Shown: one piece after another, positions 5,767 to 45,064 of the stretch
Numbering within the stretch: the first letter of the stretch is position 1
How the letters are laid out: each line of letters begins with the position of its first letter
Origin: Aureimonas sp. ME7
GTDB taxonomy: Bacteria > Pseudomonadota > Alphaproteobacteria > Rhizobiales > Rhizobiaceae
DNA: 64,000 bases
Direction: 5' to 3'
Assembly (NCBI RefSeq): GCF_903970965.1
Contig: NZ_CAJCKW010000015.1
Span: 1-64,000 of the forward strand
The notes under the pieces: model-generated
Databases searched by the model: none
Told to the model about the DNA's origin: nothing
What the model saw: the letters and a program-made list of their open reading frames with translations, nothing else
Made by a program: the position numbers and the translations under genes

Positions 5767-6543
5767 CTAGAAGCTCGCCCGGTCCCGGATGGCGGCCTTC
5801 ATAGTTTCGGTATCGCTGACGGCGACCGGGTCGTCCACATGGAGGCCGCATTCGCGCCGCGTCTCGTCCTCCCACCACCAGCGCCCGGCACGCTCCACTT
5901 CGCCGGGCCGGATGGCGCGGGTGCAGGGAGCGCAGCCGATCGACAGGAAGCCTTGCGCATGCAGCGCGTTGACCGGCACCCCGTTGCGCGCCGTGAACTC
6001 GGCGATTTCGTCGCGCGTCCAGTCGAACAAGGGGTTGGCCTTCACGAGGCCGCGCCCGATGTCGAGGCTGACGAAGTCCATCGTCTCGCGGTTGGTGGAC
6101 TGGTCGCGCCGAAGACCGGCGATCCATGCGCTGGCGCCCGCCAGGGCGCGGTTCAAGGGCTCGACCTTGCGCACGCCGCAACAGGCCTTGCGCATTTCGG
6201 GCGCGAAGTAGAAGCCGTTGATGCCTTGGTCGTCGATCAGCTCTTCCAAGGCCTCGGCCTGCGGATATTTCGCCTTGATGCGCCGGCCGTAGCGGTTCTC
6301 GGTTTCCTGCCACAGCGTGTAGGTTTCGGGAAACAGCCGGCCGGTGTCGAGCGTGACGACCTCGATCTTCAGCTTCTCCGAGAAGATCAGATGCGTCAGC
6401 ATCTGGTCCTCGATCCCGAGCGAGGTGGTGAAGACGATGCGCCCCGGCACGGTGTCGCGAAGGGTTCGCAGTCGCTCCAGCGGGCTTTGGCCTTCGAAGG
6501 CGGCGTTCAGCGCGTCCACCACCTCCGTGTTGGCCGCGCTCAT
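5767..6543 (-). CDS. cysH: Assimilatory APS reductase (CysH, iron-sulfur type)
   Basis: The 258-residue reductase makes sulfite using thioredoxin. Two cysteine pairs, ACCGVRKVEPL near residue 135 and GCAPCTRAIRPGE near residue 215, bind the [4Fe-4S] cluster that marks APS-preferring enzymes of plants and rhizobia, as opposed to the PAPS-specific enterobacterial form; ECGLH near the end carries the catalytic Cys. APS use fits the absence of an APS kinase gene in the operon. Start ATG overlaps the DUF934 stop by 4 nt (ATGA). Confidence 0.95.
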   Translation of the reverse strand: MSAANTEVVDALNAAFEGQSPLERLRTLRDTVPGRIVFTTSLGIEDQMLTHLIFSEKLKIEVVTLDTGRLFPETYTLWQETENRYGRRIKAKYPQAEALEELIDDQGINGFYFAPEMRKACCGVRKVEPLNRALAGASAWIAGLRRDQSTNRETMDFVSLDIGRGLVKANPLFDWTRDEIAEFTARNGVPVNALHAQGFLSIGCAPCTRAIRPGEVERAGRWWWEDETRRECGLHVDDPVAVSDTETMKAAIRDRASF

Positions 6544-13716: not shown

Positions 13717-14805
13717 TCAGGGACGGATTTCGCCGATCGACCAGGGCAGGGGCTCGCCGCCCCGAAACACCACGACGTCCTCCTCCTCGACCGACACGGC
13801 GGCGAGCGCCGTCGAGGGCTTCTTGACCAGCGTGATCGTGCCCTCGTTGACCGGGATCCCATGGAAGCGTGCACCGTTGAGGCTCGCGAAGGCCTCGAAG
13901 CGATCCAGCGCGCCTTCCTCGTCGAAGACCTGGACATAGGTCTGGAGCGCCGTCGCCCCGCCGAAGATGCCGGCCGAGCAGCACTCGGCCTGCTTGGCGC
14001 CGCGCCGGTGGGGCGCGGTGTCCGTGCCGAGCATGAAGCAGCCCTCGCCCGATGTCGCCGCCTTGCGCAGCGCCTGCCGGTGCCGCTCGCGCTTGGCGAC
14101 GGGCAGGCAGTAGAGATGGGGCCTGAGGCCCCCTTGGAAGATCGTCGTCCGGTTGATCACGAGGTGATGGGGCGTGATGGTGCAGGCCGCGTGCGAGGCG
14201 TGGGCGCGAACGATGTCGATCGTCTCGGCCGTGGTCGCGTGCTCCACCACCACTCTCAAGCCCTCGTGGCGACGCAGCATGGGCAGGAGGCTCGCCTCCA
14301 TGAAGGCGGCCTCGCGGTCGAAGATGTCGATCTCCGGGTCGGTGGCCTCGCCATGCACCAGCACCGCCATGCCGATGCGCTCCATGCGCTCCAGGACGGG
14401 CGCCAGCGCCGCGATATCGGTGACGCCGGCATGCGAGTTGGTGGTGGCACCGGCCGGGTAGAGCTTCGCCGCGCGCCACACGCCCTCGCGGTAGCCGCGC
14501 TCGATCTCGTCGGGCGTCGTGTGGTCGGTCAGGTAGCACGTCATCATCGGCTCGAAGTCCGAGCCTTCGGGCAGCGCCGACAGGATGCGCTCGCGGTAGC
14601 TTGCTGCCGCCTCGACGCTCGTCACCGGCGGCACGAGGTTCGGCATGATGATGGCGCGCTTGAACTGGTTCGCCGTGAAGGGCAGCACCGCCCGCAGCAT
14701 CGCCCCGTCGCGCAGGTGGACGTGCCAGTCGTCCGGGCGGCGAATGGTGATCTCGACCGGGGCGGAGGCGGCGGTCTCGGCGGCGAAGAGCGTATCGGTG
14801 GACAT
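13717..14805 (-). CDS. pyrC: Dihydroorotase (class II, PyrC type)
   Basis: The 362-residue zinc amidohydrolase forms dihydroorotate in pyrimidine synthesis. Metal-site motif DDWHVHLRDG is near residue 24, the carboxylated lysine lies in AAKLYPAGATTNS, and further ligand histidines are in VLVHGEATD and VEHATTAE; GTDTAPH holds the catalytic Asp. Length and motifs fit the E. coli PyrC class. ATG 14805 (MSTDTLFAAE) is chosen because longer in-frame starts run into the acrB terminator. Confidence 0.95.
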   Translation of the reverse strand: MSTDTLFAAETAASAPVEITIRRPDDWHVHLRDGAMLRAVLPFTANQFKRAIIMPNLVPPVTSVEAAASYRERILSALPEGSDFEPMMTCYLTDHTTPDEIERGYREGVWRAAKLYPAGATTNSHAGVTDIAALAPVLERMERIGMAVLVHGEATDPEIDIFDREAAFMEASLLPMLRRHEGLRVVVEHATTAETIDIVRAHASHAACTITPHHLVINRTTIFQGGLRPHLYCLPVAKRERHRQALRKAATSGEGCFMLGTDTAPHRRGAKQAECCSAGIFGGATALQTYVQVFDEEGALDRFEAFASLNGARFHGIPVNEGTITLVKKPSTALAAVSVEEEDVVVFRGGEPLPWSIGEIRP

Positions 14806-42280: not shown

Positions 42281-44071
42281 ATGAAACGGAAGCTGGAGGA
42301 GGGCGTCTCGCTGCTGGCGATCTGCGCCGCCGAAGACGAGACCGATATCGGGAACGGCAATCGGTTCTGCCACCGCTATGGCGACGACGTTCGGTTCGTG
42401 ACGCATATCGGGTTTCACGTCTTCGACGGGCTGCGCTGGCGCGAGGACGAGGGCCGCGATTTCGGCGGCAAGCATGTGCGCCCGCTGGCGCACCGCACGG
42501 CCGAGGCGATTCGGCTGGAATGCGTCGAGATCCAGGCCGACGAAGCGCAGATCCTGCTGGTCGAGGCTGGGAACGATGCGGAGGCGGAAATGGACCGGCT
42601 CGGGCCGCCGAAGAAGGATGCGGATCCGGACGTTCATCGGCGCTGGAAGATCCTGAAAGACGCGGTCGCGGAGCGGGACAAGATCGGCGACGCGATCGAC
42701 GAGGCGCGATCGCGCCGCGCGAGCTACTGCCGGTCGAGCCAAAACAGCGGCAAGCTCGACAACATGCTGAAGGAGGCCGCGCCCTACCTTTCCTGCACCG
42801 TGGACGAGCTCAACACCGACCCGCTGGCGCTGAACTGCCGGAACGGGACCGTTCGCTTCGTGAAGGTCGAGGACGACGAAAGCGATCCAGACGAGCCGCG
42901 CTTTCGCTGGCACGCACGGCTCGACCCGCACCGGCGCGAGGATCTGATCTCCAAGCTGTTCGAAGCGAACGTGCTGGCGGCTCCCGAACCCTCGAAGGAG
43001 GGAAGCCCCCGAACGGTGGAGGCGACCCCATCCGACCGGCTGCTGGACGCTTCGGAGCTTCTGCGGCTCGCGCACAAGGCGGCGCCGAACTTCATCGAGT
43101 TCATTCACCGCATGCAGCCCGATATCGACCGCCGGGACTATCTCCGTCGGGTGTTCGGCTACATGCTGACCGGGCTCACCGGCGAGCAGGTGATCTTCTT
43201 CTTCTACGGCATCGGCGCGAACGGCAAGTCGACCATGACCGACGTCATCGGGAAGATGATGTCGGACTATTCCGTGACGCTCGGGATCGAAAGCTTCACC
43301 GGCGATGCGAGGCGGGGTGGGGCCGACGCGACGCCCGACCTGGCGCGCCTGAGCGGGGCCTATGCCTGCTTCGCCTCGGAAGGGGACGAATCGGCCCGCC
43401 TCAAGGAAGGGCTGATCAAGCTCCTGACGGGCGACGACAAGATCGCGGTGCGCAAGCTGCACCAGGACTTCGTCGAGATCCAGATCCGGGCGAAGTTCGT
43501 CATCACCGGCAACCACAAGCCGATCATTCGGGGCGACGACGACGGCATCTGGCGGCGCGTCCACCTGATCGAGTGGCCGGTGCAGATCCCGCGCGAGGAA
43601 CGCGACAAGGATCTGCCCGCCAAGCTCCTGGCCGAGCGGGACGGGATCTTCGCCTGGATGCTGGCGGGCGCGCTCGAGTTCATGACGCTGGGCGGGCTGC
43701 ATCCGCCGGCCTCGGTGCTGGCTGCAGTGCAAGAGCACCGGGAGGAAAGCGACCCGATCAGCGCATTCATTCGCGGCGGGTGCGAGGTGACCGGGGACGA
43801 GACGGACGTCGTGTCGCCGGGGGACCTCCACGAGGCCTATGTCATCTTCTGCCGCCGGGAGGGGCTGACGCCGTTCGGGGCGACGACCTTCAACAGGCGA
43901 TTGCCCGACAAGGCGAAGATGGCCTGGAAGAGCCCCGACGGGCGCATGCGCCAGTTCGTGCGCACGAAGAGCGGCGGCACCGTTTATCGCGGCATCCGCA
44001 TCCTGCCGGCCTTCAAGCCGGGCTCGGGCAACGAATGGCCGGCGGGGCGCGACGCGCCGCCGCTGGATTGA
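42281..44071 (+). CDS. D5-type primase-helicase (SF3 helicase, P4 family)
   Basis: A 596-residue replication helicase. The D5_N region (residues ~170-290) is followed by the SF3 ATPase with Walker A YGIGANGKST at about residues 309-318 and a later sensor-like FVITGNHKPIIRGDDDGIWRR. A C-terminal winged-helix (FGATTFNRRLPDK) follows. It probably unwinds phage DNA with the primase upstream. A long region with repeats and no gene follows. Confidence 0.92.
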   Translation: MKRKLEEGVSLLAICAAEDETDIGNGNRFCHRYGDDVRFVTHIGFHVFDGLRWREDEGRDFGGKHVRPLAHRTAEAIRLECVEIQADEAQILLVEAGNDAEAEMDRLGPPKKDADPDVHRRWKILKDAVAERDKIGDAIDEARSRRASYCRSSQNSGKLDNMLKEAAPYLSCTVDELNTDPLALNCRNGTVRFVKVEDDESDPDEPRFRWHARLDPHRREDLISKLFEANVLAAPEPSKEGSPRTVEATPSDRLLDASELLRLAHKAAPNFIEFIHRMQPDIDRRDYLRRVFGYMLTGLTGEQVIFFFYGIGANGKSTMTDVIGKMMSDYSVTLGIESFTGDARRGGADATPDLARLSGAYACFASEGDESARLKEGLIKLLTGDDKIAVRKLHQDFVEIQIRAKFVITGNHKPIIRGDDDGIWRRVHLIEWPVQIPREERDKDLPAKLLAERDGIFAWMLAGALEFMTLGGLHPPASVLAAVQEHREESDPISAFIRGGCEVTGDETDVVSPGDLHEAYVIFCRREGLTPFGATTFNRRLPDKAKMAWKSPDGRMRQFVRTKSGGTVYRGIRILPAFKPGSGNEWPAGRDAPPLD

Positions 44072-44146
44072 GCCGATGCGCCGCGCCTCCGCACCTCCGC
44101 CTGTCTCAGCCGTCCGACGATCGTGGCGCCGTGTCTGCCGCTCGAA

Positions 44147-44464
44147 TTGGGCAGCTAGGGACGCAAGCGCGCCAGTTGGGTCGCAAGGGTTCGGCTTTCG
44201 AGGGTTCGGGAGGGCCTGCGAACCAAGGGTTTGGGACGCTAGGGCGGCTAGGGAGGCAAGGTCCCGGATTTCCTATATGCGCGCGAGAGAGTGATGGGGT
44301 GTCCGGATCAAGGCTCAAGGTCTCTTACGTAATGCGAGACCTTGCCTCCCTAGCCTCCCTAGCGACCCAAATCAGAATTTATCATTACAAAACATAGGGT
44401 TATAAAGTCCATGACTTGGGCAGCAAGACAGACCGGCTTCCATCTACCTTCCCTAGCTGCCCAA
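44147..44464. repeat. Six-copy repeat array upstream of the nusG-like gene
   Basis: Each copy begins TTGGG, ends near GCAAGG and has 0, 1 or 2 inserted 9-bp units TAGGG(A/C)GGC. Forward copies: 44147-44167, 44176-44188, 44231-44261 and 44416-44427. Reverse copies: 44340-44370 and 44448-44464. Copies at 44231 and 44340 form a ~31-bp inverted repeat around a ~78-nt loop. The stretch 44072-44494 has no other gene I can support. Confidence 0.8.
44379..44406 (+). promoter_or_regulatory. Predicted promoter of the nusG-like/late operon
   Basis: TTATCA, a 16-nt spacer and TATAAA lie in an AT-rich island of otherwise GC-rich DNA. Transcription would start near 44413. The leader would then begin with a hairpin: TTGGGCAGC (44416-44424) pairing with GCTGCCCAA (44456-44464). 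Confidence 0.55.
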
Positions 44465-44494
44465 AACGCCTTTCTGGCGGGTGAAAGGGACTGG

Positions 44495-45064
44495 ATGGGG
44501 CAGGCTCCGACGATGCCGAGCGTTTCCTATGACGATGGGCGGGTGTGGTTCGTGGCTCGCACGAACCCACGCTGCGAGGGCCGGGCCATGGCGACGCTCG
44601 CCGCCAAGGGGTTCGACACGTTTCTGCCGAAGGGGCGCAAGACGCTCATCCACCATCGCAGCAAGCGGGTGATCGAGCGCGAGTTCCCGCTCATGGTGGG
44701 GTATCTGTTCCTGGCGATGCCGGTGGACGCGACGCAGCAGCATTGGGGCGTGGCGCGCACCTGCGACGGCGTGCATGGGATCCTTGGCATGGGCGACCGG
44801 TATGTGCCCGTGCCCGAGCGCGAGGTCATGGTGCTGATGGATGCGGAGGCGGACGGTCGCCTTCGCTTCGAGGCCGCCAAGCGCAACAAGGGGCAGCATA
44901 GCTTCGTGGACGGGATGGAAGCCCGGATCGCGCTGGGGCCGTTCACCGGCTTCGTGGGGCAGGTGGTGGACGCTTCCTGCCGCAAGGCGATCCGCCTGTT
45001 GATATCGATCTTCGGCGGCTTGTCCGAGGTCGTGGTGCCTGTTGACGAACTGGAGGCCGTGTGA
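44495..45064 (+). CDS. Phage NusG/RfaH-like transcription antitermination protein
   Basis: A 189-residue NusG paralogue. The NGN domain shows VWFVARTNPRCEGRAMATLA, GFDTFLPKGRK and EFPLMVGYLFLAMP (about residues 62-76). The C-terminal KOW domain is ALGPFTGFVGQVVDA to VVVPVDELE. NusG-family proteins bind RNA polymerase and suppress pausing or termination. ATG 44495 has AAAGGGA just upstream; the longer form from 44411 would translate the repeat leader and starts at the predicted transcription start. It is placed before the late genes. Confidence 0.87.
   Translation: MGQAPTMPSVSYDDGRVWFVARTNPRCEGRAMATLAAKGFDTFLPKGRKTLIHHRSKRVIEREFPLMVGYLFLAMPVDATQQHWGVARTCDGVHGILGMGDRYVPVPEREVMVLMDAEADGRLRFEAAKRNKGQHSFVDGMEARIALGPFTGFVGQVVDASCRKAIRLLISIFGGLSEVVVPVDELEAV

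Follow-up and report, generated by a model that had tools for sequence, protein, structure and literature searches.

The repeat array at 44147-44464 of the window (the whole 64,000-nucleotide stretch of Aureimonas sp. ME7 DNA analyzed here) is a single element built from 9-bp units. It pairs with the D5-type primase-helicase gene upstream, not with the nusG-like gene that follows it, and arrays of the same kind recur beside D5 genes of other phages and prophages with units that differ from lineage to lineage. We judge, with a probability of roughly 0.87, that the array is the replication origin of the prophage, with iterons bound by a predicted winged-helix domain at the C-terminus of the D5 protein. 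This reading is favored because of the linkage to D5 genes, the common plan of forward arms followed by reverse arms (FFRR), the phage-specific units, and an annotated origin in the Streptococcus phage Sfi21; it is favored also because of published SaPI, PICI and Cch2 cases, the predicted winged helix itself, helicase-less proteins encoded beside arrays, and an AT-rich zone. An earlier note on this DNA, written from the sequence alone, had listed both phage origin iterons and protein binding sites among its options; the first, and in that sense the second, is supported by the association with D5 genes, the parallel in Sfi21 and the winged helix predicted at the D5 C-terminus.

Anatomy of the array

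The units follow the pattern T[T/A]GGGNNGC and are grouped into six arms in the order F2-F1-F3-loop-R3-F1-R2, each arm having one to three units and mostly an AAG end (Table 1). In the 64-kb window, TNGGGNNGCWAGG has nine matches, all of them within the array, where 0.24 are expected and none of 100 shuffled sequences reached nine; TTGGGNNGCWAG has six, again all within the array, where 0.09 are expected. The longest inverted repeat in the array spans 46 nt at 87% identity (44230-44275 and 44326-44371).

Table 1. Features of the array and its flanking genes, in window coordinates.
Feature	Position	Strand	Basis or remark
D5/P4-type (SF3) primase-helicase gene, proposed initiator	42281..44071	+	Pfam D5_N, DUF5906, Pox_D5; PHROG 1156 DNA primase
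D5 C-terminal domain, residues 490-596, proposed iteron reader	43748..44068	+	Predicted structure, fold matches
Outer left arm F2, TTGGGCAGC TAGGGACGC AAG	44147..44167	+	Sequence, 2 units
Single-unit arm, TTGGGTCGC AAGG	44176..44188	+	Forward in the window; arm at the same place reverse in L127 and L128
Central left arm F3, three 9-bp units and AAGG	44231..44261	+	Sequence
Central loop	44262..44339		ATATGCGCGCGAGAGAG near left arm, CTCTTACGTAATGCGAGA near right arm
Central right arm R3, three 9-bp units and AAGG	44340..44370	-	Sequence
AT-rich spacer, proposed melting zone	44371..44415		Start region of the next gene falls here too
NusG-like gene	44411..45064	+	Pfam NusG E 2.9e-15; PHROG transcription antiterminator
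Single-unit arm F1, TTGGGCAGC AAG	44416..44427	+	Inside nusG-like ORF
Outer right arm R2, TTGGGCAGC TAGGGAAGG, with a degenerate second unit	44447..44464	-	Inside nusG-like ORF

Much of the earlier description holds. There are indeed six copies with zero, one or two extra 9-bp units, four forward (44147, 44176, 44231, 44416) and two reverse (44370, 44464). The GCAAGG end said to be common to all, however, occurs in only three of the six (44176, 44231, 44370), the others ending in GCAAGC, GCAAGA and GGTAGA. The 9-bp repetition was seen correctly, and the insert unit written as TAGGG(A/C)GGC is better given in the form above, with its two free bases. The nested inverted repeats were described as including one of about 31 bp; the long one measures 46 nt. 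The region said to be a gap without genes is one for the first four copies, while the last two (44416-44427 and 44447-44464) lie in the nusG-like ORF that begins at ATG 44411. By eye, iteron sequence makes up the opening codons of the gene that follows the array in the window (44411-44470), in L126 (about 8129) and in L139 (5598), so that an arm of the putative origin doubles as coding sequence.

The 45 nt that follow the right arm R3 have a G+C content of about 0.27, versus 0.65 for the 14-kb locus; the central loop is mildly AT-rich at 0.56. An AT-rich region between iteron sets is therefore present in the window, between R3 and the right outer arms. The GC skew profile does not switch cleanly at the window array.

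The repeat is not a general repeat of the host. The 4.38-Mb genome (60 contigs) contains 24 matches to the unit pattern, nine in the array, two in a second prophage, and 13 single and distant from one another, versus 46 matches for a control pattern read backwards. A dispersed host repeat of the REP or MITE type was rejected on these counts; the host-wide scattering that the earlier note had named as evidence against its proposal comes down to those 13 lone matches. A search of phage DNA with 44400-44470 returned no match. A pattern scan of viral contigs returned 97 stretches, which served for anatomy only, many of the matches being possibly due to chance by a rough estimate. Six viral contigs (L064, L071, L095, L107, L114, L122) carry long runs of the 9-bp unit in one direction, with 16 to 36 copies; these may be repeats within coding sequence that have no connection with origins.

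Linkage to D5 genes and to the nusG-like gene

The gene directly upstream of the array is the only D5 gene found in its own genome. For comparison, 183 D5 loci were collected by protein, independently of any repeat: the window, 13 viral contigs, eight named phages, Sfi21, the best 80 of 565 viral contigs and the best 80 of 580 genome contigs. In each locus, the 700 nt beginning 30 nt before the D5 stop codon were scored by their best ungapped inverted repeat, as were all other 700-nt windows, which served as 5 to 39 mostly coding control windows per locus. Five loci (L141, L178, L300, L308, L321) were omitted for a 3' flank too short to score, leaving 178; some contigs were fetched twice (for example L126/L162 and L133/L170), so the counts are partly non-independent. 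The D5-proximal stretch holds the best inverted repeat of its locus in 136 of the 178. A score of at least 14 is reached by 61% of D5-proximal stretches versus 0.8% of control windows, and a score of at least 16 by 45% versus 0.27%.

Among the 42 loci where the D5-proximal stretch did not rank first, seven have by eye an iteron-like inverted repeat displaced to 0.7 to 2 kb past the D5 stop codon (L140, L165, L175, L246, L248, L263, L269), and two (L142 and L288) have an array inside the D5-proximal stretch that is nevertheless outscored or tied. The remaining 33 show no clear array in the fetched locus by inverted-repeat score. Of the eight named phages, the D5-proximal stretch wins in four (AmM-1, Pthi1, Pan4 and phiSP15-1); Nsp-JY21 has an array that is outscored, RR1-A has one about 2 kb beyond the D5 stop codon, and RcapNL, too short for scoring, has one visible by eye. 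RcSaxon alone of the eight shows no array by inverted-repeat score. The gene immediately before D5 in the Aurantimonas phage AmM-1 (L139 2311-3501) encodes a protein whose DnaA C-terminal (HTH) domain matches Pfam Bac_DnaA_C and which may be a second factor that binds the origin.

The link to the nusG-like gene, central to the earlier note, is incidental. Such a gene follows in just five of the 183 D5 loci, representing four phages (the window, L126 = L162, L127 and L128), as detected by tblastn at E <= 1e-4, a search that more distant NusG-like genes would escape. A link between the array and the nusG-like gene was rejected on that frequency. The look at nusG-bearing relatives that the note had recommended found the array in all three, L126, L127 and L128.

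These phages also bear on the proposal that the array acts as a structured RNA or attenuator in mRNA running from the helicase gene into the nusG-like gene, its inverted arms forming one long stem. In favor of it, a strong fold is predicted for 44140-44470 (MFE -156 kcal/mol, z -6.0), but inverted repeats of any kind fold. The match between units is slightly better when they face each other (0.836 vs 0.798 for non-facing units, with 26 loci higher, 9 lower and 11 ties among 46), a similarity that the dyad symmetry of DNA sites yields equally well. Compensatory changes in the long stem divide the four nusG-bearing phages evenly: facing free bases match in L127 and L128, even though the free bases differ between those two phages, and mismatch in the outer and middle facing units of the window and L126. 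The array is found besides in loci that have no nusG-like gene. Rfam returned a single match, at E 0.11 and 22.6 bits against a gathering score of 71, and a known structured RNA family was rejected accordingly. The "RNA switch in read-through mRNA" of the earlier note finds little support in the Rfam result and the mismatched free bases, and we consider a structured RNA extremely unlikely as the explanation of the array, while facing units could still form a hairpin.

Shared plan, proposed reader and known origins

Arms were analyzed in 123 loci with a score of at least 13 (55 of the 178 fell below). Multi-unit arms run forward-then-reverse in 88 of the 123 and reverse-then-forward in two, with 33 mixed, single-direction or unresolved. 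Because the left arm of the inverted repeat supplied the unit, the central pair faces by construction, and the direction of the outer arms is the real test. In the 65 loci with exactly four multi-unit arms, the order is FFRR in 58, FFRF in five, RFFR in one and RFRF in one. Some loci (L128, L259) have the full order F2 R1 F3 / R3 F1 R2, which is identical when read on the other strand; the window array matches it save for its left single arm, which is forward. Single arms vary across the 58 FFRR loci, the left gap holding a lone R1 in 17 and a lone F1 in 12, and the right gap a lone F1 in 18 and a lone R1 in nine.

The 45 nt to the right of the right arm have a median G+C of 0.378 versus 0.644 for the locus, and lie below the loop in 52 of the 58 loci; this AT-richness may reflect the start region of the next gene. 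Alternating purine-pyrimidine words are over-represented in the loops: in a 6-mer test of 45 non-redundant loci from the 58, CGCGCG, ACGCGC and CGCGTA occur in 21 to 25 of the 45 loops, versus at most 10 in 200 sets of resampled loops.

The unit itself varies between lineages, with forms that include GGGNNGCTA, GGGAGGATA, TTGGACAGC, GGGCCTGAC, CGGCCCGAA, TTGGAAGGG and TTGCGATAG among others and a period that is usually 9 bp, and it agrees within any one phage. Agreement within a phage together with difference between phages fits binding sites that track their reader. The likeliest reader would be the C-terminal domain of the D5 protein, whose predicted order of helix-helix-helix-strand, at a mean pLDDT of 86, can be read as a winged helix. 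Foldseek gives this domain weak matches to the RFX DNA-binding domain, the primase of another D5-type virus protein and the P4 origin-binding domain 1ka8 (the last at E 0.47, TM 0.52/0.55), and no match with E <= 0.001. Searched alone by sequence against solved structures, the domain has no match at E <= 1; the structures matched by the D5 profile include 7ola_A, "DNA primase", across the helicase and C-terminal parts. The alpha protein of phage P4, with its origin/crr, is an SF3 primase-helicase, and the comparison made with it covers the protein fold.

Unit sequence follows D5 relatedness with r of about 0.34. From the 123 loci, 16 with poor consensus or duplicated and one with more than three undetermined positions were set aside, leaving 106, of which 84 are non-redundant. 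Across these 84, the partial rank correlation with the unit is 0.17 for the C-terminal domain given the helicase core and 0.16 for the reverse, and the test does not single out the C-terminal domain over the helicase core.

The closest annotated parallel is in Sfi21: where its D5-type gene ends, the record lists an "origin of replication, 302 bp non-coding region, phage inhibitory sequence". Placed on a multicopy plasmid, the Sfi21 element reportedly lowers growth of the matching phage. Both elements sit at the end or 3' of a D5-type helicase gene and extend over about 300 bp, non-coding in Sfi21. By eye, Sfi21 has the plan of the window, with facing tandem arms around a loop, AACCC/GGGTTT spacers, outer pairs, and the ATG of the next gene at the right edge. 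It differs in having units every 8 bp, again by eye, and a very AT-rich loop, whereas in the window the GGGNNGC units are 9 bp long, the loop is less AT-rich, and the AT-rich zone lies to the right of the right arm. The Sfi21 element is described as an independent origin activated by infection (PMC6356513).

Staphylococcal systems offer a precedent for the proposed reader. The C-terminal domain of SaPI Rep is described as reading iterons 3' of its own gene, and the isolated C-terminal domain of the SCCmec protein Cch2, likewise a D5-type helicase, as binding direct repeats 3' of its own gene (PMC7581432). The putative Cch2 origin differs from the window array in that, by the same account, deletion of the inverted repeats had no effect on binding and only three 5-nt iterons were found (PMC7581432). 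In PICI elements, the origin is reported to sit directly on the 3' side of rep and to have an AT-rich region flanked by two sets of iterons (PMC6092414). Our comparison with PICI is by description, and the window array, unlike those of SaPI and PICI elements, sits in a prophage with structural genes. The statement in the earlier note that no element of this build had been described was too strong, since the annotated Sfi21 origin and the PICI and SaPI origins share the general build. The window array is very probably an origin of the Sfi21/PICI kind, a kind that is widely and regularly distributed. A literature search of titles and abstract openings found no such array described in alphaproteobacterial phages.

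For the window copy, we infer the following mode of action. The D5 primase-helicase made from the upstream gene would bind the 9-bp iterons through its C-terminal winged-helix domain, and the facing central arms F3 and R3 would place two helicase hexamers head to head, with the outer arms (F2 and F1 on the left, F1 and R2 on the right) supplying extra binding sites. Melting would begin either in the loop or in the AT-rich spacer to the right of R3, the latter being perhaps the likelier site, after which the helicase and the phage primase would start forks.

Annotated cohesive ends were noticed in two of the fetched records, those of the Rhodobacter phage RcapNL and of Sfi21, and they point in different directions on whether the array could be a packaging (cos) site or terminase-binding region. 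The 3' cohesive overhang of RcapNL, annotated at L141 5448-5473, is found close to the right of the right arm, but in the linear record of Sfi21 the annotated cos is about 6 kb from the origin. We give a packaging role next to no probability. In RcapNL itself, the annotated cohesive end and a stretch "similar to genome start" overlap or adjoin the right arm (L141 5406-5473), and origin and cos may adjoin in that phage.

Helicase-less D5 C-terminal proteins beside arrays

The second prophage of the same genome, on contig C25, has two facing unit matches 120 bp apart (13866-14000). This array (L025, about 5860-6010; inverted-repeat score 44) adjoins a gene for a 207-aa protein (L025 6202-6822, minus strand) with an Arc-like N-terminus (Pfam Arc) and a C-terminus that matches the end of D5 primase profiles, aligning to positions 751-827 of PHROG 1156 (E 5.5e-07 for the protein); Pox_D5 gives no match at E <= 0.1. 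Contig C25 carries integrase, portal, terminase and tape-measure genes, and the two stretches that cover the whole contig contain no D5 match. The window prophage and C25 have a nearly identical 9-bp unit, which makes cross-talk between them directly testable.

The C25 protein has matches in 54 of 297 genomes of the family, most of them to the Arc part and eight over the C-terminal part. A scan of viral contigs for relatives matched nine stretches, none of them confirmed. Seven of the eight C-terminal-part matches were followed (G058 was left out), giving nine proteins with the C25 protein and the RR1-A "anti-repressor Ant". For six of the nine (C25, L343, L344, L345, L349 and RR1-A), the top-ranked inverted repeat lies within 700 nt on the 3' side; L347 has array-like units by eye with a low score, and L346 and L348 show no array beside the D5 C-terminal-type protein. 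A D5 gene is near the proteins of L344, L347 and RR1-A; in L346 and L348 the contig carries one about 30 kb away. Across the whole genomes behind L343, L345 and L349 (G102, G194 and G031) the profile finds no D5 gene, allowing for possible assembly gaps or a divergent D5. The array loci without D5 are then C25, L343, L345 and L349, whose proteins have an N-terminus that is Arc-like in C25, BRO-N in L343 and L345, and of no assigned domain in L349. Portal and integrase genes mark C25 and L343 as prophages.

Bro-N was found by Pfam in all four proteins tested (RR1-A, L324 = L343, L325 = L344, L341 = L345), and Pox_D5 passes the cut-off only in RR1-A among them. BRO-N proteins with a D5-like C-terminal part are encoded beside origin-like arrays whether or not a D5 helicase is near: L343 9767-10615 (-), L345 9597-10307 (-), L344 about 9.6-10.3 kb (-) and L140 6229-6957 (+). 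Bro-N proteins with exchanged partner domains, encoded beside a replication zone, have been described (PMC10111431); the account consulted names no D5 C-terminal domain as a partner, in contrast to the BRO-N proteins found here. Our search of titles and abstract openings found no description of a helicase-less D5 C-terminal protein beside an origin.

The resemblance of the BRO-N and Arc-like proteins to regulators is one point in favor of reading the array as a transcriptional operator instead of an origin, an early/late switch or an autoregulatory site bound by D5 or another regulator. The array occupies the gap between two genes and runs into the start of the second, and its AT-rich spacer could hold a promoter. 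The size of the array and its dyad plan, its position on the 3' side of the helicase gene in widely differing phages, and the origin annotated in Sfi21 all speak against an operator, which we regard as very unlikely, although a regulatory side role could accompany origin function.

With origin function as the preferred reading, the D5-less loci raise the tentative and somewhat doubtful possibility that origin and helicase have been parted in a class of mobile elements, the array standing beside a protein that keeps only a D5-like C-terminal DNA-reading domain. Such helicase-less proteins could start replication with a host helicase, could borrow the helicase of a D5 phage, or could block the origin of a D5 phage by occupying its iterons.

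For many D5-type phages and prophages, these results provide a rule for finding the origin: look directly after the helicase gene for short tandem units in mirror image. We argue that full phages, too, commonly have the plan that has been described as peculiar to PICI satellites, which bears on the source of satellite replicons. Phages that each have their own unit sequence would allow the recognition code between C-terminal domain and iteron to be derived. The helicase-less proteins, finally, may hint at control or theft of origins among co-resident prophages.
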